This document shows, one piece after another, positions 10,662-48,407 of a stretch of DNA of 52,112 nt; position 1 is the first letter of the stretch, and the number at the start of each line of letters is the position of its first letter. Source of the stretch: Bacteroidales bacterium (GTDB lineage: Bacteria > Bacteroidota > Bacteroidia > Bacteroidales > UBA932). Made by a program: the position numbers and the translations under genes. The notes beneath the pieces are model-generated. The model worked only from the letters and a program-made list of their open reading frames with translations, ran no database searches and was not told the origin of the DNA. The DNA is taken from positions 1 through 52,112 of the forward strand of contig JAGCVJ010000012.1 of NCBI GenBank assembly GCA_017962375.1, in the 5' to 3' direction.

Positions 10662-10692
10662 TTTGTTTTGTCGGAAGAATTGTTTACTTTTG
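10662..10692 (+). promoter_or_regulatory. Promoter of the cobalamin riboswitch / btuB transcript
   Basis: TTTG (10662-10665), 19 bases, TACTTTTG (10685-10692): an exact match to the Bacteroidetes consensus. It points away from the cbiA promoter 32 bases to the left. The predicted transcript begins a few bases before the riboswitch. Confidence 0.72.
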
Positions 10693-10697
10693 CTTCC

Positions 10698-10870
10698 GAT
10701 TCAGGTAATCGGTGTGATTTTCATACCGGTGAAAGGGAATCCGGTGAAAGGCCGGAACTGTACCTGCAGCTGTATTTCCCTCAAACAGTCCGTTACGGAT
10801 TTGCCACTGGAAGTCTCCGGGAAGGTGTAACGGATGGGAAAAGTCAGAAGACCTGCCTGCCTCGCTCAGA
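10698..10870 (+). promoter_or_regulatory. Cobalamin riboswitch
   Basis: Class hallmarks appear in order: GGGAATCCGGTGAAAGGCC near 10733, GCCACTGGAAG near 10803, GGGAAGG near 10819, and a B12 box resembling AGTCAGAAGACCTGCC near 10843. It precedes the first BtuB-like receptor. The expression platform probably includes the GC-rich hairpin and T6 run at about 10873-10916, directly before the start codon, so high cobalamin should reduce expression of the receptor and the chelatase-like lipoprotein after it. Confidence 0.9.
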
Positions 10871-10923
10871 GTGGCCGCCTCTCAGGAAGAAGAGCCTCGG
10901 CGATCAGATTTTTTAATAGCGCA

Positions 10924-13059
10924 ATGAACAAATTGTTGGTGTCAGGCCTTTTGGCTCTGGCTTTATGCGTTTGCCAGGGTGCGGCGGCTCAGGATACCCT
11001 GAAGAAGTACGACCTTCAGGAACTTGTAGTCACCGGAACGGGTACGCTCCATCTTCTGAAGGAGGCCCCTGTGCAGACCGAGGTTATAACTGCCAAGCAG
11101 CTTAAGAATTATGGCGGAAGAAGCCTTCAGGACATTCTTTCCAGCCTTGCCACGTCTTTCGATTTCAACGAGGACGATATGGGAAGCCATATCACGATGA
11201 ACGGCCTAGGAAATTCCTACATCCTGATTATGGTGGACGGAAAGAGGCTTAACGGAGACGTTGGCGGAGACAACGATCTCCAGCTTATCGATCCGCAGAA
11301 CATCGAGAAGATAGAGATAGTGAAAGGCGCGTCTTCTGCCCTTTACGGCAGCGACGCCATAGCCGGAGTCATCAACATCATAACCAAAAAGCACGATGAC
11401 GGCCTGCTGCTGGAGAATTCCACCAGAGTGGGCAGCTACGGAGACATCCGCCAGCATAACGGCATAGGAATCCGCAGCGGCAAGTGGAACAGCTACACCA
11501 ATTTCCAGCTCCAGCATACAGACGGCTGGCAGAACACTTCCGTTGAACATACTTCTCCGCTGGAAGAGCCGATTCTGGACTCCAAGAACAAGACTCGCAA
11601 CCGCTTCACTTCCTGGCAGGCAGCCGAAAGACTCACTTACGATGCCGGAAGGGCCGGCGAGTATTACGCAGAAGGCAGCATCTACGGCAAAAGGATATTC
11701 CGCCCAAGCGGCAAATATCCTCATTATGACGTGAATACATACGACCTTGCATACCAGAATGCCGGAGCTTCGGTAGGGGGAAAGTGGAATCTGGAGGGCA
11801 AGGACTATATCAGTTTTGACGCGGACTGGAACCGCCACGCTTATTATTACAAGTTCACCGAGACCACTCTCGTTGAAGACTATGACAAAAGCGCGGGCAC
11901 CATATATTATCCATATTATCCATATCTAGCGGGACAGCAGGCTCTCCAGAGCGACCAGCAACGAACCCTAATCTCTGCCAAAGGGGTCTTTACTCTGCCT
12001 TACGAAAACCGGTTGAGCGGGGGAGCCGAGTTCCGCTATGATTATCTTAAGGCGCCAACCAGAGTTGTCGGCGGAAAAGCCGACGACTGGACGGCCGCCG
12101 TTTATGTCCAGGACGAGTACAATCCTCTCAAGAGCCTGAACATCACCGCAGGATTGAGGCTGAACCAGAACCACCAGTTCGGCTTCAAGGCCACTCCTAA
12201 GCTGAGCCTTATGTGGTCTGCACTCAAAGATCTCAGGCTCAGGGCATCGTGGAGCCAGGGCTTCAAGACTCCTACTCCTAAGGAGCTGGACTACATGTAT
12301 GTCAAGCAGATGACGGGCACTTACCTTTATCTTGGAAACAAGAACCTCAAGGCCCAGAGCAGCAACTACTTCTCCTTCAGCACGGAGTATTTCGTCAAGG
12401 ATTTTGTGTTCACTGCCAGCGCCTACTACAACAAGCTGGACAACATGATCACCCTGGTTACCATTCCAATTTACGAGGCTCCCGACGAGCTTATAGCAAG
12501 GTATGATCCTGTGAAGACCCGCCAGTACCAGAATATGGACAAGGCCAAGACTTACGGGGCAGATTTTTCTCTGCGATGGAAAATCGGTGAATTCCTTCTT
12601 AACGGGGGATACAGTTATGTTGATACAAAGGCAGACCAGTACGATTCTGACCACGAGACAGTAAGGCGGGTGAAGATTGACGGCGTGGCTCACCACAAGG
12701 GCAGTTTCTCACTGCTGTGGAACCACAGTTTCTCCTCCGCCTACAATATGAGCGCCGGTATCTATGGGAGAATGTCTTCAAAGCGCTATTACCAGACAGA
12801 CGGGGACGGAAAGGGCTATCAGCTGTGGAGGCTTTCCACAACTCACGACTTTGCCCGAAGCCGCAATTTCACCATCAGCATCCTGGCCGGCATAGACAAT
12901 ATATTCAACTACATAGACAAGACTCCGCACGGCCTGCATCTGGGCACAACCTCTGCCGGAAGGACATTCTATGCGGGAGTGATACTGAAATTCACCAATG
13001 GAAGAAAAACCATAAATAAGATAAAAACGAATTTAAACCAAAACGAAAATGAGAACTAA
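10924..13059 (+). CDS. btuB: TonB-dependent corrinoid receptor, BtuB-like
   Basis: Outer-membrane TonB-dependent receptor of 711 residues. I start it at ATG 10924, after the riboswitch; an upstream in-frame ATG at 10834 lies inside the riboswitch. The signal peptide ends near residue 23 (GAAAQ). The plug domain follows (ELVVTGTG, then the IEIVKGASSALYGSDAIAGVINI segment typical of receptors), then a beta-barrel rich in alternating aromatic residues that ends near FYAGVILKF. The riboswitch and the surrounding cobalamin genes point to corrinoids as substrate. The gene overlaps the next one, a CbiK-like lipoprotein, by 11 bases. This pair recalls the Porphyromonas IhtA/IhtB receptor-chelatase pair, so heme is a less likely alternative. 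Confidence 0.88.
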   Translation: MNKLLVSGLLALALCVCQGAAAQDTLKKYDLQELVVTGTGTLHLLKEAPVQTEVITAKQLKNYGGRSLQDILSSLATSFDFNEDDMGSHITMNGLGNSYILIMVDGKRLNGDVGGDNDLQLIDPQNIEKIEIVKGASSALYGSDAIAGVINIITKKHDDGLLLENSTRVGSYGDIRQHNGIGIRSGKWNSYTNFQLQHTDGWQNTSVEHTSPLEEPILDSKNKTRNRFTSWQAAERLTYDAGRAGEYYAEGSIYGKRIFRPSGKYPHYDVNTYDLAYQNAGASVGGKWNLEGKDYISFDADWNRHAYYYKFTETTLVEDYDKSAGTIYYPYYPYLAGQQALQSDQQRTLISAKGVFTLPYENRLSGGAEFRYDYLKAPTRVVGGKADDWTAAVYVQDEYNPLKSLNITAGLRLNQNHQFGFKATPKLSLMWSALKDLRLRASWSQGFKTPTPKELDYMYVKQMTGTYLYLGNKNLKAQSSNYFSFSTEYFVKDFVFTASAYYNKLDNMITLVTIPIYEAPDELIARYDPVKTRQYQNMDKAKTYGADFSLRWKIGEFLLNGGYSYVDTKADQYDSDHETVRRVKIDGVAHHKGSFSLLWNHSFSSAYNMSAGIYGRMSSKRYYQTDGDGKGYQLWRLSTTHDFARSRNFTISILAGIDNIFNYIDKTPHGLHLGTTSAGRTFYAGVILKFTNGRKTINKIKTNLNQNENEN

Positions 13060-14119
13060 AATTCTTTTGATTGCGGCTTTGGCCGCCGTATTCGGACTGG
13101 CTTCTTGCTCCAAGAGCGATGATGTAAAGTCTAATTACGACACTTATCAGAAGTCCGTAAACGAGACCGTAAAGTCTCAGAAGAAGAATAACAAGGTTAT
13201 CCTTCTGGTTGCTTTCGGAAGTACCTGGCAGCAGGCTTACGACGCATTTGACGCTACCGTAGCGGCTTACAAGAGCGCTTTCCCTGGCTATGACGTATTC
13301 CTTTCATTCTCTTCAGCCATCTGCATCAACCGTGCAGCTGCCGGCGAGAACGTGGCTCCAAGATACTTCTATGCTCCGCCATTCTGGCTCACCGCTTTTG
13401 CCCAGGACGGCGTTATGTATTCTGAGATTGTTGTCCAGAGCCTTCAGGTTATCCCTGGCGAGGAATACACCCGCGTAATCAACTACATCAAGGACTTTGC
13501 AAACAACGCAAACGGAGACCTTTCTGACAGCTATCTTTCAAAGGTTGTCCTCAAGCTCGGCGTTCCGCTGCTGCAGGATGCTGACGCAGACGTTAACGCA
13601 GTTGCCAAGGCTCTCGATGACCTTTACAAGGGCAAGGCAGCAAGCAATGTAGTTGCTTTCATGGGCCACGGTAACCCTGACTCATACGACACCTACAAGG
13701 CCAACATCCGATACACCCAGCTCGAGGAGGCTCTCCAGACCTACAGCCCTAACTACTTTGTAGGAACTGTTGACATGATGGATAACTTCAAGACCAACGT
13801 TCTTGCTAGAATGAAGGCAGCCGGCATCACTTCCGGCACCGTTTACTGCCACCCTCTGATGTCTATCGCCGGCGACCACGCCCACAACGACATGGCTGGT
13901 GACGACAACGAGAACGGCGAGCCTAACGAGGAAGGCGAGGTTGAAGATACCAGCTGGAAGTGCTACTTTGCAGCAAACGGCTTCACCTGCAATGACGACA
14001 CCCAGATTGTTAAGGGTCTGCTTGAACTTCCTACCGTACGCCAGATCTGGATGAACCATACCAAGGCAGCTATCAACGGCGAGCCTCTGGACTACTACCA
14101 TTCAAAGGATCCTGAGTAA
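13049..14119 (+). CDS. CbiK-like chelatase lipoprotein, second copy
   Basis: Lipoprotein of 356 residues (lipobox LASC, Cys20) with a CbiK-type chelatase fold. The likely catalytic residues Glu139 (IPGEEY), His207 (MGHGN) and His277 (AGDHAHND) are kept, but the position of His109 in the operon's other CbiK is Gln133 here. An acidic insert rich in Asp, Glu and Asn follows His277. The protein is about 80 residues longer than the cbiK product and clearly diverged from it. Because it is co-transcribed with a riboswitch-controlled receptor, a role at the cell surface in binding or metal-handling of captured tetrapyrroles is plausible, as proposed for Porphyromonas IhtB. Direct participation in cobalamin synthesis is the other option. 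Confidence 0.8.
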   Translation: MRTKILLIAALAAVFGLASCSKSDDVKSNYDTYQKSVNETVKSQKKNNKVILLVAFGSTWQQAYDAFDATVAAYKSAFPGYDVFLSFSSAICINRAAAGENVAPRYFYAPPFWLTAFAQDGVMYSEIVVQSLQVIPGEEYTRVINYIKDFANNANGDLSDSYLSKVVLKLGVPLLQDADADVNAVAKALDDLYKGKAASNVVAFMGHGNPDSYDTYKANIRYTQLEEALQTYSPNYFVGTVDMMDNFKTNVLARMKAAGITSGTVYCHPLMSIAGDHAHNDMAGDDNENGEPNEEGEVEDTSWKCYFAANGFTCNDDTQIVKGLLELPTVRQIWMNHTKAAINGEPLDYYHSKDPE

Positions 14120-40778: not shown

Positions 40779-40785
40779 ATTTTAA

Positions 40786-41115
40786 GGTACGGGTTAAGCC
40801 GGATTCTGTCCCCTTGCGGGTCTTTATCATTTATCTGGCGCAGCTTACCCCTCGGCAAAGGACGGGCAGCCCTTAAATGCCGATATACATAGCCTTGCAG
40901 GATGCGGTGGAGTACCCTCGTCATGTCGCCATAACCAGTCGTGAGCTCTTGCCTCGCGTTTTCACCCTTACCTCTAGCCTTGCGGATAGGGGCGGTTGTT
41001 TTCTGTTACCCCGAACATAAGCTTACGCCCATCTGTGCTTTCTACAGCGCATTGCCCTTTCCTGTCCGGACTTTCCTCCGGTTTCCCGGCGATAAAGTCT
41101 CCCGTACCGGCGACA
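40786..41115 (-). ncRNA. rnpB: RNase P RNA (M1 RNA)
   Basis: Catalytic RNA that matures tRNA 5' ends. On the minus strand the conserved P4 region reads GAGGAAAGTCCGGACAGG near the 5' end. The 3' part has AGGGTACTCCACCGCATC and ends with ACAGAATCCGGCTTAACCCG, the universal closing motif. A TATCTTTG element lies just upstream of the 5' end (complement of about 41113-41120). Total length of about 330 bases fits the bacterial type A form; exact ends are estimates. Confidence 0.93.
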
Positions 41116-41174
41116 AAGATAATGCAAATTTCCGGGTCTCGGTCTTATTGATGGAATAATAGAGACTTCTTTTG

Positions 41175-41182
41175 TATCTTTG
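41175..41182 (+). promoter_or_regulatory. Promoter -7 element of the riboswitch-DASS transcript
   Basis: TATCTTTG just before the second cobalamin riboswitch. A TTG lies further upstream but at 24 bases, outside the usual spacing. Confidence 0.5.
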
Positions 41183-41185
41183 CGA

Positions 41186-41365
41186 TGCAAAACGGTGAGA
41201 TGACGGTTATCGGCCCGAATCTTTAAAAGGGAATCCAGTGAAAAGCCGGAGCAGTGCCCGCTACTGTAATATCCGATCCTTTGTGGATATATGGAATTTG
41301 CCACTGTTTCTTTGAAATGGGAAGGCCCGTAGGATAGAGTCAGGAAACCTGCCGGGTTGCTTAGT
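41186..41365 (+). promoter_or_regulatory. Cobalamin riboswitch before a dicarboxylate transporter
   Basis: A textbook match: GGGAATCCAGTGAAAAGCC near 41228, then GGAGCAGTGCCCGCTACTG, GCCACTG near 41300, GGGAAGGCCCG near 41320 and the B12 box AGTCAGGAAACCTGCCGGG near 41338. Downstream, TTCCAGC/GCTGGAA forms a hairpin (about 41402-41422) just before the start region and may mask translation. The only gene after it on the strand encodes a DASS transporter. Confidence 0.93.
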
Positions 41366-41435
41366 TAACAAAGTTCCCGGGCAAGGAACCTATTAATTAA
41401 CTTCCAGCGGTTAAAGCTGGAAAAACTTATTTGTT

Positions 41436-42941
41436 ATGTTCAGCAATTATATTGGTTTTGAGAAGGTTGACCAGTTCCTCAAGAAGTATTACGAGAGGTG
41501 GACTCATCCGGACAAGGCAGTAAAGAAACTTTACCAGGCCATTGTGGTGCTGGTACTTACCCTTTTCGTGTGGAATATGCCGTCTTCCTGGTTCGGGATG
41601 GAAGGTATAACCGTGGTTCAGCAGAGGCTTATCGCAATCTTTGTGTTCGCGATGCTGATGTGGGTGATGGAGGTTGTGCCGGCCTGGGCTACTTCCGTGG
41701 CAGTGATAGGACTGCTGCTGCTGTTTACGTCGGATTCGGGAATTGGGCCGATGTGCGATACCGAGAAGGTGGGGCAGCTGCTTAGCTACAAGGGAGTTAT
41801 GGCAACCTTCGCAGACCCTGTGATAATGCTGTTCATAGGAGGATTCATCTTGGCGATTGCAGCCACAAAGACCGGTCTGGACGCCCAGCTGGCAAAGGTG
41901 CTGCTGAAGCCTTTCGGAAGAAAGAGCGAGAACGTGCTGCTTGGATTCCTTCTGATTACAGGACTGTTCTCAATGTTTATCAGCAACACTGCCACCGCGG
42001 CAATGATGCTTACTTTCCTTACTCCTGTGTTCAAGCAGCTTCCGGCTAACGGAAAGGGCAGGATAGCAATGGCGCTGGCAATACCGGTAGCGGCCAATCT
42101 GGGAGGAATGGGAACACCGATCGGAACCCCTCCGAACACCATCGCGATGAAATACCTGAACGATCCGGAAGGGCTGAACCTGGGAATGGGATTCGGAGAG
42201 TGGATGATGTTCATGTTCCCGCTGGTAATTGTGCTGCTTTTCATCAGCTGGTTCATTATCAAGAAGATGTTCCCGTTCACGCAGAAGACAGTGGAGCTCA
42301 AGATAGAAGGCAATATGCACAAGGGATGGCACACAACGGTGGTTATTATCACTTTCTGCGTTACCGTGCTGCTGTGGCTCCTGGACTCAGTTACCGGAAT
42401 CAATACTTATACAGTGGCTCTGATTCCGTTTGTAGTGTTTGCCCTCACAGGAGTGATTCATCGCCGAGACCTGGAGGAGATCAACTGGTCAGTTATATGG
42501 ATGGTGGCCGGCGGCTTTGCCTTGGGTTACGGACTTAACGCTTCCGGACTGGCAAATCTGGCAGTAAAGAGCATTCCGTTCGGCAACTTCTCGCCGATGC
42601 TGATCCTGATAATCTCAGGCCTGATCTGCTACGCCCTTTCAAACTTCATATCCAACTCAGCTACAGCCGCTTTGCTGATGCCTATCTTGGCTGTTGTATG
42701 TACGGCAATGGGAGACAGCCTGAATGTGATCGGAGGCACTTCAACCGTGCTTATCGGCGTGGCCATTGCAGCATCCAGCGCAATGATTCTCCCGATTTCC
42801 ACCCCGCCTAACGCTCTGGCTTTCGCCACCAACCTTGTGCAGCAGAAAGACATGAGCAAGATAGGCCTGATTGTGGGCGTAATCAGCATGGGCCTGGGTT
42901 ACGGCCTGCTGTACCTGATGGGAACTTTCCACCTGATCTAG
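41436..42941 (+). CDS. DASS/SLC13-family sodium:dicarboxylate transporter
   Basis: Inner-membrane carrier of 501 residues with about a dozen hydrophobic segments. The two inverted-repeat signatures of the family are present: FISNTATAAMM with GTPIGTPPNTIAM, and SNFISNSATAALL with ISTPPNALAF. The SNT and TPPN motifs form the Na+ and carboxylate sites in VcINDY-like carriers, so succinate, fumarate, malate or a similar anion is expected. An N-terminal soluble segment of about 35 residues precedes helix 1. The cobalamin riboswitch directly upstream implies expression when cobalamin is scarce. The stop codon overlaps that of the convergent glutaminyl cyclase gene, with no terminator between. Confidence 0.9.
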   Translation: MFSNYIGFEKVDQFLKKYYERWTHPDKAVKKLYQAIVVLVLTLFVWNMPSSWFGMEGITVVQQRLIAIFVFAMLMWVMEVVPAWATSVAVIGLLLLFTSDSGIGPMCDTEKVGQLLSYKGVMATFADPVIMLFIGGFILAIAATKTGLDAQLAKVLLKPFGRKSENVLLGFLLITGLFSMFISNTATAAMMLTFLTPVFKQLPANGKGRIAMALAIPVAANLGGMGTPIGTPPNTIAMKYLNDPEGLNLGMGFGEWMMFMFPLVIVLLFISWFIIKKMFPFTQKTVELKIEGNMHKGWHTTVVIITFCVTVLLWLLDSVTGINTYTVALIPFVVFALTGVIHRRDLEEINWSVIWMVAGGFALGYGLNASGLANLAVKSIPFGNFSPMLILIISGLICYALSNFISNSATAALLMPILAVVCTAMGDSLNVIGGTSTVLIGVAIAASSAMILPISTPPNALAFATNLVQQKDMSKIGLIVGVISMGLGYGLLYLMGTFHLI

Positions 42942-43717
42942 TAGGTGATTTTGTAGAGGCGCGGCCAGTATTTGCCGGTAATGTAGATGCTGCCGTCAGA
43001 AGGATCACGGGCGATGCCATTGAGCACGTCCGTTTTCTTTGTCTTTAGATTGGCAGGCAGAATGTCTTTGCAGTCTATGTAGTCTGTGACAACTCCGGTT
43101 TCAGGATCTATTATCACGATATAGTCTGTGGTATAGACATTTGCCCAGATTTTGCCGTCAACCCATTCAAGCTCGTTGAGGTATTCCAGAGGCTTGCCGT
43201 CTTTGGTAACCCTGATCTTGGATGTGCAGTAGAAAGAAGACTTGTCCATGAAATACAGGAACGAGGTGCCGTCGCTCATTATCAGCCTGTTTCCGTCTGT
43301 AGTAATGCCCCATCCTTCGGTAGGGTAGGAAGGCCTGCCTATTTCCTTGAGCTTGTTCTCAGGATTCTTCAGGCTGAATACAAAGCAGACGTGCTCCATC
43401 CAGGTAAGGATGAAGAAACGGTCGTCCAGAACACAGCTTCCTTCAACAAAGTATTTTCTCTTGAACTTCCACTTCCTGAGCCACTTGCCGGTTTTAAGGT
43501 CGAGCTTGTTCAGGCAGCTTTCGCCGTACTGGCCGGTGGTTTCCCACAGGTGATTGTCGTAGAAGAAAAGCCCCTGGGTGTAGGATTTGGTGTCATGAGG
43601 ATACTCGGCGAGCACTTTCACCTTGTGTGAGCGGGCCTTCACCACATTGTCCTGAGACATTGCGGCGGCAGGCAGAAACAGCGCCAGAGCCAGTATTGCA
43701 AGGAATCTTCTGTTCAT
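42938..43717 (-). CDS. Glutaminyl-peptide cyclotransferase (beta-propeller type)
   Basis: Exported 259-residue protein with a signal peptide ending near residue 21 (AAAMSQ). The family pattern is clear: SYTQGLFFYDNHLWETTGQY, GWGITTDGNRLIMSDG, LNELEWVDGKIWANVYTTD and LNGIARDPSDGSIYITGKYW. These belong to the plant/bacterial-type glutamine cyclotransferase, which forms N-terminal pyroglutamate. In Bacteroidetes such cyclases act on exported proteins exposing N-terminal Gln after signal cleavage. It is four bases downstream of pyrG on the same strand and probably shares its transcript. Confidence 0.92.
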   Translation of the reverse strand: MNRRFLAILALALFLPAAAMSQDNVVKARSHKVKVLAEYPHDTKSYTQGLFFYDNHLWETTGQYGESCLNKLDLKTGKWLRKWKFKRKYFVEGSCVLDDRFFILTWMEHVCFVFSLKNPENKLKEIGRPSYPTEGWGITTDGNRLIMSDGTSFLYFMDKSSFYCTSKIRVTKDGKPLEYLNELEWVDGKIWANVYTTDYIVIIDPETGVVTDYIDCKDILPANLKTKKTDVLNGIARDPSDGSIYITGKYWPRLYKITY

Positions 43718-45416: not shown

Positions 45417-45424
45417 TATATTTG
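45417..45424 (+). promoter_or_regulatory. Promoter -7 element of the TPP riboswitch transcript
   Basis: TATATTTG, just upstream of the riboswitch. The -33 position reads ACTG with a 20-base spacer, a partial match. Confidence 0.5.
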
Positions 45425-45429
45425 CATCC

Positions 45430-45505
45430 GCTTAGGGGTGCCGTTTGGCTGAGATCATACCCTTGAACCTGATGCGGGCAATGCCGCCGTAGGGAAAGTG
45501 AGGCT
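45430..45505 (+). promoter_or_regulatory. TPP (thiamine pyrophosphate) riboswitch
   Basis: The THI-box motifs appear in order: AGGGGTGCC, GGCTGAGATCATACCC, TTGAACCTGATGCGGGCAAT, GCCGTAGGGAAAGTGAGG. It precedes a TonB-dependent receptor and PnuT, so high TPP should lower their expression. Confidence 0.95.
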
Positions 45506-45539
45506 TCGTCATTCCTGGGCTTTAGTTTTATGTCTGGTT

Positions 45540-47771
45540 ATGAAGAAGTTTTTTTTATATGCAGTTTTGTCTGCAATCTGCTTATGCTCAGCGATGAGTG
45601 CAGCCTCTCAGGATTCTTTGAGCCAGAGGCGTCTTGACAGTATAATTGTATCCACATCCAGGGCTGGAGTGAACACTCCTGTGGCAAACACCACAATTGG
45701 AAAGGATGTGATGGAAAGGGTGCCTTCCACATATTCCCTGCCTATGATGCTGAACATGCTGCCTTCCGTGGTTTCCACGACAGAGGGTGGCTTGGCTCTT
45801 GGATACAGCAACATGAGGGTCAGGGGAAGCGACGCTTCCAGAACCAACATCACTCTCAACGGCATAGCTATCAACGATGGCGAAAGCCAGGAGGTTATCT
45901 GGGCAAACATCCCGTCTCTGCCTAATTTCCTGCAAAGTGTCCAGCTCCAGAGAGGAGCCGGAACCAGCGCAAACGGTCCGGGAGCGTTCGGGGCATCGCT
46001 GAACATGCAGACAAAGACTCCTTCATTCGAGCCTTACGCCAACGTGGATTTCTCGGCCGGAAGCTACAAGACTTTTATGGAAAGCATAGCCCTTGGAACG
46101 GGTTCTATGAAGAGTGTAGGCAACGGATACTTCAGCGCGGACCTGGCTTATAACCACGCCCTGACCAGGGGATACATAAGAAACGCCAAGGCAAACCTCA
46201 ACTCACTTATGGTGTCAACTTCCTGGAGAAATGAGCGCAGCAGCGTCAAATTCATATATATGCTTGGTTCCCAGCATACGGGAATTACCTGGGAGGGGTG
46301 CCCGATAGACATCTATTACACCAACCGCAAATACAATGTGGCGGGAGAGTACTATGACGATGAGGGTAACGTCCATTACTATGACAACGAGACCGACAAT
46401 TACCGCCAGCACCACTTCCAGCTTCATTATGTGCATCAGTTCTCCCCGAAGCTGAGCCTGAGCTCAACTCTCCATTTCACAAAGGGAGACGGTTACTACG
46501 AGAACTACAAGTATGATGTGAAGTTCTCCAAATACGGCCTTGACCCTCAGGTTATTGACGGAAAAACTTACAAAAAGACGGACGTCATTATCCGCCAGAG
46601 CATGGACAACAGCTACGTTGCAGGTGTCCTTAACCTCAAGTACAGGACCGGAAAGCTTGACTTTGCTTCCGGAATCAACTACTCGTTCTATGACGGAGAC
46701 CACTTCGGCAACATTCTCTGGAGCAAGTACAACCAGAACCTGGACTTGTCAAAACCGTGGTACACGAACAACGGCAAGAAGGCCGATGCCAGCGTCTTTG
46801 CCAAGGCGGAATTTGCCATTGCCAGGAACCTTACGGGGTTCATAGACCTCCAGTACCGCTTCATAAACTTCAGGCTCAGCGGAATGGACAAGGATTTCGT
46901 CAGCCTTGCCAACAAAAAGGAATACAATTTCTTCAATCCGAAGGCAGGTCTGAACTACAAATTCGGGAAATATTCACGGCTCTATGGCTCTGTGTCTGTA
47001 GCTCACAGGGAACCTAGCCGCAGCGATATAAAAGAGTCCATCAAGGCCGGCAAGCAGGATCTTCTCAAGAGCGAGCGTATGCTGGACTTTGAATTTGGCT
47101 GGCAGGTGAAAACCAACAGGATTGAGACAGGAATCAATTTCTACTCAATGGAATACAGAAACCAGCTGGTTTCCACGGGAAGGCTCACCGAGACCGGTTA
47201 TGTTATCCAGGAGAACATTCCTGACAGTTACCGCAGGGGAGTGGAAGTTTCTCTTGCCTATAAGCCGGTCAGGTTTATTACGGTTTTCGGCACAGGAACA
47301 TTCTCCAGGAACAAGCTGAAGAACTATACGCTTTTTGTTGATGCCTACGACAATTCTTCCGACTGGAACCCGGTTCCGCAGAAAGAGGTTTTCCTCAAGA
47401 AATCCAACCTTACGCTTTCTCCTGAACTCATTGCTTCCGGCGGATTCACGGCAAAGCCTGAGGCAAACACGGACATCACAATCACCGGCAAATATGTGGG
47501 CAAACAGTATATGGACAACTCCAGTCTGGAGGTTGCAAAGGTGCCTTCCTATTTCACGATGAGCCTGGATGCTGCCAAGACATTTGTCTTCAGGAACAAC
47601 AGCAAACTGCGCATTTCTTTTTGCGTAGATAATCTTCTGAACCGCAAGTACTACTCATACGGCTGGATTTACCGTGCCGTGTTTGATGACGGCTCGGATG
47701 ACTATATTGAAAAGGGTGTTTACGCTCAGGCTACCATCCACTTCATCGGCAAGATCCAATTCACTTTCTAA
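45540..47771 (+). CDS. TonB-dependent thiamine-type receptor
   Basis: Outer-membrane receptor of 743 residues, started at ATG 45540. An upstream in-frame ATG (45498) overlaps the riboswitch end. The signal peptide ends near residue 24 (SAASQ). The plug domain includes NMRVRGSDASRTNITLNG and SVQLQRGAGTSANGPGAFG; the barrel ends in IGKIQFTF with a terminal Phe, the BAM-type signal. Its place behind a TPP riboswitch and before a PnuC-family transporter fits the Bacteroidetes outer-membrane thiamine receptor; that assignment is by context, since the barrel itself does not show the substrate. Confidence 0.87.
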   Translation: MKKFFLYAVLSAICLCSAMSAASQDSLSQRRLDSIIVSTSRAGVNTPVANTTIGKDVMERVPSTYSLPMMLNMLPSVVSTTEGGLALGYSNMRVRGSDASRTNITLNGIAINDGESQEVIWANIPSLPNFLQSVQLQRGAGTSANGPGAFGASLNMQTKTPSFEPYANVDFSAGSYKTFMESIALGTGSMKSVGNGYFSADLAYNHALTRGYIRNAKANLNSLMVSTSWRNERSSVKFIYMLGSQHTGITWEGCPIDIYYTNRKYNVAGEYYDDEGNVHYYDNETDNYRQHHFQLHYVHQFSPKLSLSSTLHFTKGDGYYENYKYDVKFSKYGLDPQVIDGKTYKKTDVIIRQSMDNSYVAGVLNLKYRTGKLDFASGINYSFYDGDHFGNILWSKYNQNLDLSKPWYTNNGKKADASVFAKAEFAIARNLTGFIDLQYRFINFRLSGMDKDFVSLANKKEYNFFNPKAGLNYKFGKYSRLYGSVSVAHREPSRSDIKESIKAGKQDLLKSERMLDFEFGWQVKTNRIETGINFYSMEYRNQLVSTGRLTETGYVIQENIPDSYRRGVEVSLAYKPVRFITVFGTGTFSRNKLKNYTLFVDAYDNSSDWNPVPQKEVFLKKSNLTLSPELIASGGFTAKPEANTDITITGKYVGKQYMDNSSLEVAKVPSYFTMSLDAAKTFVFRNNSKLRISFCVDNLLNRKYYSYGWIYRAVFDDGSDDYIEKGVYAQATIHFIGKIQFTF

Positions 47772-47776
47772 AACTT

Positions 47777-47784
47777 TATCTTTG
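47777..47784 (+). promoter_or_regulatory. Internal promoter -7 element of pnuT
   Basis: TATCTTTG, five bases before the pnuT ATG. This would let pnuT be transcribed as a leaderless RNA, outside riboswitch control, in addition to read-through from the receptor gene. Confidence 0.45.
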
Positions 47785-47789
47785 CAGTT

Positions 47790-48407
47790 ATGGAACAGGT
47801 GATTCAGTTTGCTCAGCAGAATTGGGACGATATCTTTGCTCTGGTTACGGGTGTGCTTTTCCTGATATTCGAGGTTAAGCAGAAGAACTTGATGTGGATA
47901 ATCTGCATCTTCTCCTCTTCCGTTACCGCGTATGTTTTCTTTACGGAAAAACTGTATGCTCAAATGGCTCTGAACCTGTACTATCTTCTCACGGCATTTT
48001 GGGGTATATGGTCCTGGGCAAGGGACTCTCGCAAACTTAAGGCGTCAGTATCATCATCTGACAAATCGGCTCCGACAGTGCACTTGACAAGACTTACCAA
48101 TAAGGTCGTGCTGATTAGTGTCATAAGCTTTATTGTGGTTGCTCCTGTTGTCTGGAGAATTCTTGTCTGGCTTGATGACGCCAATCCGATAATGGATGCC
48201 ATTGTATTTACAATCAGCATAATAGCGACAATCTGGCTGGTGAAATCCTATCTGCAGCAATGGCTTGCGTGGATGGTGGGAGATATTGTCCTGACTGCAA
48301 TGTGCATAGTTCAGGGAATGCCGGTAATGGCCGCCCTTTACATCTTCTACACCCTTAGTGCCATCTACGGCTACTTCCACTGGAAGAAGAGGGGAGTGTA
48401 TGTTTAA
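47790..48407 (+). CDS. pnuT: PnuC-family vitamin transporter, likely thiamine (PnuT)
   Basis: Inner-membrane protein of 205 residues with seven predicted helices and the Trp/Tyr-rich pattern of the PnuC family (FWGIWSWARDSRK, IWLVKSYLQQWLAW, YTLSAIYGYFHWKK). PnuC homologues take up NMN or nicotinamide riboside, PnuT takes up thiamine and PnuX riboflavin. The TPP riboswitch at the head of the cluster points to thiamine. A thiamine pyrophosphokinase gene, often next to these two genes in relatives, is not present here. The transporter works by facilitated diffusion, so trapping by phosphorylation must occur elsewhere. Confidence 0.88.
   Translation: MEQVIQFAQQNWDDIFALVTGVLFLIFEVKQKNLMWIICIFSSSVTAYVFFTEKLYAQMALNLYYLLTAFWGIWSWARDSRKLKASVSSSDKSAPTVHLTRLTNKVVLISVISFIVVAPVVWRILVWLDDANPIMDAIVFTISIIATIWLVKSYLQQWLAWMVGDIVLTAMCIVQGMPVMAALYIFYTLSAIYGYFHWKKRGVYV

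Follow-up and report, generated by a model that had tools for sequence, protein, structure and literature searches.

A cobalamin riboswitch upstream of a DASS/SLC13 carrier gene in a Bacteroidales genome, with a possible role in succinate handling

The gene metE encodes the classic B12-independent isozyme, and VcINDY is a Na+-coupled dicarboxylate carrier that works as an importer, with SNT motifs that form the binding sites for substrate and sodium. Cobalamin riboswitches of the family RF00174 have been described over B12-independent isozymes such as metE (PMC2211319, PMC9600662), and the locus presented here shares with these systems the aptamer family, the kissing loop and the principle that a substitute is made under B12 shortage, whereas its target is a DASS secondary carrier and not an isozyme or a known corrinoid or cobalt importer. 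For Tannerella, a metatranscriptome study from 2020 placed a cobalamin riboswitch upstream of 4-hydroxybutyryl-CoA dehydratase, in one sentence labelled adenosylcobalamin biosynthesis and with succinate unmentioned in that passage (PMC7160235). Regarding DASS carriers, one DASS gene of Phascolarctobacterium faecium is consecutive with a succinate pathway cluster, and both gave higher read values when a succinate producer was grown alongside; import of succinate was proposed, with no mention of 'riboswitch' counted in that paper (PMC7568257). In Xylanibacter ruminicola, succinate builds up when B12 is absent and propionate is made when it is supplied; according to the same study, B12 altered the expression of the mutase and of little else in the propionate pathway, and none of the four predicted riboswitches was near propionate pathway genes (PMC11575231). 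The choice of end product, succinate or propionate, in rumen and gut Bacteroidales affects the glucose supply of the host and cross-feeding. No paper on a cobalamin riboswitch paired with a DASS/SLC13 or dicarboxylate carrier was found in the open PMC literature (subscription journals were outside the scope), and as far as these searches show the pairing would add a new class of targets to a known riboswitch.

The DNA analysed, here called the window, is a stretch of 52,112 nucleotides from a genome (G000) of 2.17 Mb in 18 contigs that is 87% complete. The original prediction, that a cobalamin riboswitch lies directly upstream of a 501-residue DASS carrier, was borne out on both counts. The aptamer (Table 1) was matched by cmscan of the window with an E-value of 1.2e-19 over positions 1-189 of the RF00174 model, i.e. 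the full aptamer, and it was also matched by the model R1, which was built from 25 sequences including the window's own. The carrier scored 246.4 bits against TIGR00785 'dass' (NCBIfam), for which the curated cut-off is 198.6. The loop of the P13-L13 hairpin holds CGGGCA, the reverse complement of the L5 bases TGCCCG, a 6-mer that occurs nowhere else within 41181-41380, and the aptamer thus appears to have its usual kissing-loop partner, as judged by six-base complementarity. The aptamer end and the start codon of the carrier are 65 nt apart. Two hairpins were seen in the leader, of which only one is weakly terminator-like, so that a strong intrinsic terminator was rejected as expression platform; the second hairpin is perhaps part of that platform. 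The box TATCTTTG, right where the aptamer match begins, resembles TAnnTTTG, which we take to be the Bacteroidetes promoter consensus; a sigma-70 scan gave no convincing promoter in the same region. Further upstream, an RNase P RNA (40782-41108, Rfam scan of the window) lies on the opposite strand. The carrier was also correctly predicted to be alone on its strand: the next large ORF (42938-43717, Glu_cyclase_2) is on the other strand, which makes the carrier look like a single-gene unit and the sole gene controlled.

Table 1. Positions in the window of the features of the carrier locus and of the other cobalamin riboswitch.
Feature	Position	Strand	Basis or remark
Probable promoter region, with TAnnTTTG-like box TATCTTTG at 41175-41182	41130..41183	+	Sequence reading
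Cobalamin riboswitch aptamer, RF00174	41176..41370	+	Rfam, 85.2 bits (gathering score 31.5); model R1, 116.5 bits
L5 loop bases TGCCCG, pairing partner of the L13 loop	41255..41260	+	Sequence complementarity
P13-L13 hairpin, loop CGGGCAA, able to kiss L5	41373..41389	+	Hairpin and complementarity
Second hairpin between aptamer and start codon, with weak terminator-like tail	41402..41422	+	Perhaps part of the expression platform
DASS/SLC13 carrier, 501 aa, VcINDY-like	41436..42941	+	ORF call, TIGR00785, Pfam and PDB searches
Other cobalamin riboswitch	10686..10874	+	Precedes TonB receptor and CbiK, amid cobalamin synthesis genes

Pfam matched the carrier to CitMHS (153.4 bits) and to Na_sulph_symp (146.7 bits); characterised CitMHS members move metal-citrate. 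Among solved structures, VcINDY is the nearest relative (135 bits by sequence, aligned over 119-489, and 179 bits by profile). The PDB entries 6wu1 and 6wtw, among which LaINDY, of the exchanger type, is presumably found, scored 45 and 44 bits by sequence and were absent from the profile result. An SNT motif is present at 183-185 and the second site reads SNS (T to S), while the carriers of G091, G113 and G124 have SNT and SHT. The protein thus has the SNT motifs in common with VcINDY and other SLC13 carriers, and differs by the SNS second site and by its riboswitch control. A paralogue in the same genome (26% identity) showed no Rfam riboswitch in the 4.3 kb examined.

Two cobalamin riboswitches were found when G000 was searched, both of them inside the window. 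Cobalamin synthesis genes in this genome comprise two CbiK, DBI_PRT, two CobB/CobQ-like genes and CbiD-CbiJ, and, given the gene region behind the other riboswitch, the organism probably makes its own B12. The two CbiK genes of that region (1749-2579 and 13049-14119) have lipoprotein-like N-termini by eye, a trait shared by the first of the CbiK genes next to the carrier in the related locus L129. Two matches to PF01642 bear out the assumption of the original prediction that the B12-dependent methylmalonyl-CoA mutase route is available, so the B12-dependent counterpart is present in the genome. None of the other tested B12 substitutes was found, i.e. the 87% complete genome yielded neither metE (PF01717) nor 4-hydroxybutyryl-CoA dehydratase; a match to the MetH activation domain (PF02965) was likewise missing. 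The cobalt importers CbiM and NicO gave no match above either cut-off in the 13 genomes searched, G000 included; sub-threshold NicO matches were seen in G093 and G115.

The suggestion to look for the same riboswitch-DASS pairing in related genomes proved fruitful, as it recurs in nine other genomes on several branches, and the predicted pairing is therefore more general than the window alone could reveal. Within the same family, a carrier at 42% identity or more was present in 24 of 149 genomes. With the relatives on named contigs added, members of the carrier group lie behind a cobalamin riboswitch, directly or within an operon, in ten genomes including that of the window. The riboswitch directly precedes the carrier in G000, in G091, G113 and G124 (gap of 36-37 nt) and in G093 (gap of 179 nt). 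The order is riboswitch, metE, carrier and porin in G081 and riboswitch, TonB receptor, CbiK and carrier in G034, while in G115 metE is directly upstream of the carrier, a porin-like ORF (judged by eye) follows, and the contig ends upstream. Among 80 relatives on named genome contigs, a riboswitch was located upstream on the same strand in three: directly before the carrier in L081, with a cobA/btuR gene (corrinoid adenosyltransferase) in between in L130, and with a TonB-type ORF (by likeness to that of G034) and CbiK in between in L129, where CbiK and a PduO-type adenosyltransferase also follow downstream. The layouts of the ten switched carriers are thus direct (window, L081, L016, L018-L020), metE-carrier-porin (L073), cobA-carrier (L130) and TonB-cbiK-carrier (L129, G034). 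Two further loci, L083 and L136, hold two DASS carriers in tandem and then a cobalamin riboswitch; since it lies downstream of the carriers and faces the next gene, it was rejected as a carrier switch.

The carrier tree comprised 96 carriers, one of which (L017, whose contig ends in metE) was left out of the change count; L009 (the same record as L079), L021, L023-L025, L028, L030-L037 and second copies from the family search were kept off the tree. The ten switched carriers among the 95 scored require at least six gains or losses (shuffled mean 9.7), of which well-supported branches force five, which suggests several separate gains with different partners as the simplest reading of the tree. 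For the remaining 85 of the 95, no riboswitch was found in the upstream stretch examined (0 to 4 kb per named locus, so that 'no riboswitch' means none within that stretch, and some contigs end close upstream). Many of the unswitched carriers come from mutase-bearing rumen Prevotella, including X. ruminicola Ga6B6. The nearest relatives of the window carrier are those of G119 (= L079; 96%) and L080 (88%), which have in common a different leader without riboswitch match, and the RNase P neighbour is shared by these nearest relatives (by Rfam in L009, by eye in L080). With both close sisters lacking the switch and carrying another leader, the switch of the window would most simply be a recent gain, an ancestral riboswitch in this lineage being less likely; read from these leaders, the riboswitch-carrier link is unstable within the window's own lineage, too.

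The other targets of the riboswitch in the family were surveyed in 60 regions and 30 loci, which overlap and are a subset of the family's riboswitches (L171 and L203 had no ORF call). TonB-receptor-like ORFs, recognised by eye, were the largest cluster of first genes in the regions surveyed, and anaerobic ribonucleotide reductase (NrdD) formed a cluster of at least eight, of which the one tested scored 932 bits against TIGR02827. In G133, G122 and G007, the riboswitch heads an operon of 4-hydroxybutyryl-CoA dehydratase, CoA-transferase, iron alcohol dehydrogenase and succinate-semialdehyde dehydrogenase. The dehydratase was found in four of the 149 family genomes (these three and G006; search at E 1e-60), each time preceded, on the same strand, by a cobalamin riboswitch (about 170 nt away in one pair of genomes, about 800 nt in the other) and with mutase matches in the genome. 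Enzyme identities were checked by Pfam and PDB in the G122 copy, where the nearest solved structures were 1u8v (dehydratase/isomerase, 837 bits) for the dehydratase, 3eh7 (4-hydroxybutyrate CoA-transferase, 578 bits) for the CoA-transferase and 8cei (480 bits) for the succinate-semialdehyde dehydrogenase; a further nearest solved entry for this operon was 30sm, named Cvir-Hbd2 (383 bits). Judged by its enzymes, the operon is a predicted B12-independent drain from succinyl-CoA towards butyrate. The dehydratase riboswitch of Tannerella has in common with these four genomes the succinate-linked route and the same switch, and differs from the locus of the window in that an enzyme operon, not a carrier, is the target. 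The predicted targets across the family thus include ways of doing without B12 (metE, NrdD and the 4-hydroxybutyrate operon).

Several further arrangements were seen in the survey. G006 has a second riboswitch before an acyl-CoA dehydrogenase and two Etf-subunit-like ORFs (by eye), an arrangement that would fit a B12-gated succinate-to-butyrate switch. A riboswitch in G015 (L213) precedes an ORF that clusters with the CoA-transferase of the 4-hydroxybutyrate operon, and those of L046, L051 and L059 (G014, G144 and G134) precede a conserved lipoprotein-like ORF of 411-416 aa in the stretch examined.

Methylmalonyl-CoA mutase was matched in eight of the ten switched and in 25 of 43 unswitched genomes (searched in 38 of the 80 named loci). 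The difference has the expected direction and is not significant (p = 0.18, one-sided Fisher test that ignores kinship). No mutase match was obtained in two of the switched genomes, G081 (81% complete) and that of L129 (G173). Even where the mutase is present, carriers of this group mostly lack the switch.

Gene neighbours were read in 76 of the 80 named loci, as L129, L138, L141 and L152 had no ORF call for the carrier. KorB (2-oxoacid:ferredoxin oxidoreductase) is immediately upstream of the carrier in 14 of these 76, relatives without the switch and mostly rumen Prevotella, and a glutamate dehydrogenase cluster is immediately downstream in five; Pfam confirmed one example of each. In X. ruminicola Ga6B6 (L134) the carrier follows KorA-KorB, and no riboswitch was found. 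These neighbours point to C4/C5 dicarboxylates as substrates, with many of the 14 KorB loci being close relatives on the tree. Porin_O_P adjoins the carrier in G113, G091, G124, G093 and G081 and was set aside as a substrate clue, being hardly informative on substrate or direction. Next to the carrier, 11 loci have an M49-type peptidase ORF (one tested); a mutase was found in none of the six genomes of such loci that were searched for it (L132, L144, L146, L148, L151, L154).

The best supported reading, which draws on genomic context, is that of a B12-riboswitch-gated dicarboxylate carrier that acts as succinate outlet or exchanger when B12 is scarce, and we consider it about as probable as not. 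Its footing in the sequences is the riboswitch, the carrier family, the recurrence, the mutase genes and the other targets in relatives. When B12 is plentiful, the cobalamin riboswitch would hold the carrier off, and the carrier would be made when B12 is scarce. Succinate would then become the end product in these fermenters, because B12 is needed to convert succinate to propionate, and the carrier would most likely let out or exchange succinate or a related C4/C5 dicarboxylate; B12 repression, succinate as substrate and outward flux are what we infer. Across the family the same riboswitch likewise precedes other B12-independent substitutes, namely metE (in one operon with the carrier in G081), anaerobic ribonucleotide reductase and, in some genera, the 4-hydroxybutyrate operon. 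The B12-independent routes among these targets support the B12-gated handling of succinate that had been predicted, and the 4-hydroxybutyrate operon is the strongest independent support for a switch that acts on succinate overflow. The predicted export step fared less well, as VcINDY imports by Na+ symport and the SNT motifs are kept in the window protein (the second as SNS), which would argue against an outlet. Direction of transport is the weakest step: since an inward Na+ gradient biases a Na+ symporter towards import, export would require that the carrier works by exchange, that its Na+ stoichiometry is low and the succinate gradient steep, or that the coupling has changed.

Import is what two of the alternatives propose. 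Under B12 shortage the carrier could take up fumarate, malate, succinate or 2-oxoglutarate by Na+ symport and so feed fumarate reduction or glutamate synthesis, as the VcINDY-like sequence with its sodium and substrate motifs, the KorAB and glutamate dehydrogenase neighbours in relatives and the proposal of succinate import for the DASS genes of P. faecium (PMC7568257) would suggest; such uptake is improbable in our view, as it leaves the tie to B12 lack and the metE operon unexplained, and X. ruminicola has a surplus of succinate in any case when B12 is missing (PMC11575231). The carrier might also import cobalt bound in a metal-carboxylate complex, or a different small anion needed for B12 synthesis, and be induced together with the B12 acquisition genes, much as the original prediction had allowed for a cobalt or corrinoid role. 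This idea gains from the carriers of G034, L129 and L130, which share their operons with B12-related genes (a TonB receptor and CbiK, or the corrinoid adenosyltransferase CobA) and would suit B12 acquisition too, from the many cobalamin synthesis genes of G000 in the face of no CbiM or NicO match, and from a CitMHS score as high as that of Na_sulph_symp. It loses from the NCBIfam and PDB assignment to the VcINDY-type dicarboxylate carriers, from the 2-oxoacid or glutamate enzymes that often adjoin unswitched relatives, and from the distribution of CbiK, which was found in six of the ten switched genomes, is hence not universal with the link, and was not found in G113, G093, G081 and G151 (incomplete MAGs, with CbiK as the sole chelatase searched), so that cobalt for de novo synthesis is unlikely to be the reason there. 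Overall we regard cobalt import as unlikely.

An accidental link, in which a promoter-plus-riboswitch replaced the native leader in the window's lineage without any selected role, would agree with the absence of the switch from the two closest relatives found and their different shared leader. That the carrier tree forces the link to have changed five times or more makes this very unlikely, and the genomes concerned hold between one and eight cobalamin riboswitches each among the matches listed (two to four in the seven switched genomes of the family set).

Carried beyond the window, the reading as a succinate outlet leads to the tentative proposal, which we hold to be somewhat doubtful, that control of succinate disposal by a vitamin sensor has arisen repeatedly in the Bacteroidales of rumen and gut: when B12 is scarce, the riboswitch would open the way either for a succinate carrier, in some cases with a porin, or for an operon that leads from succinate to butyrate. 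If true, gene control could act at the exit and not on the pathway. If the carrier is Na+-coupled and works outward, one may speculate that succinate efflux could pump Na+ and so replace the Na+-pumping methylmalonyl-CoA decarboxylase, which stops without B12.

Another vitamin-related part of the window (45424-45512 and 45498-48407) holds a TPP riboswitch ahead of a TonB receptor and an NMN_transporter-family gene, which together are probably a thiamine uptake unit.
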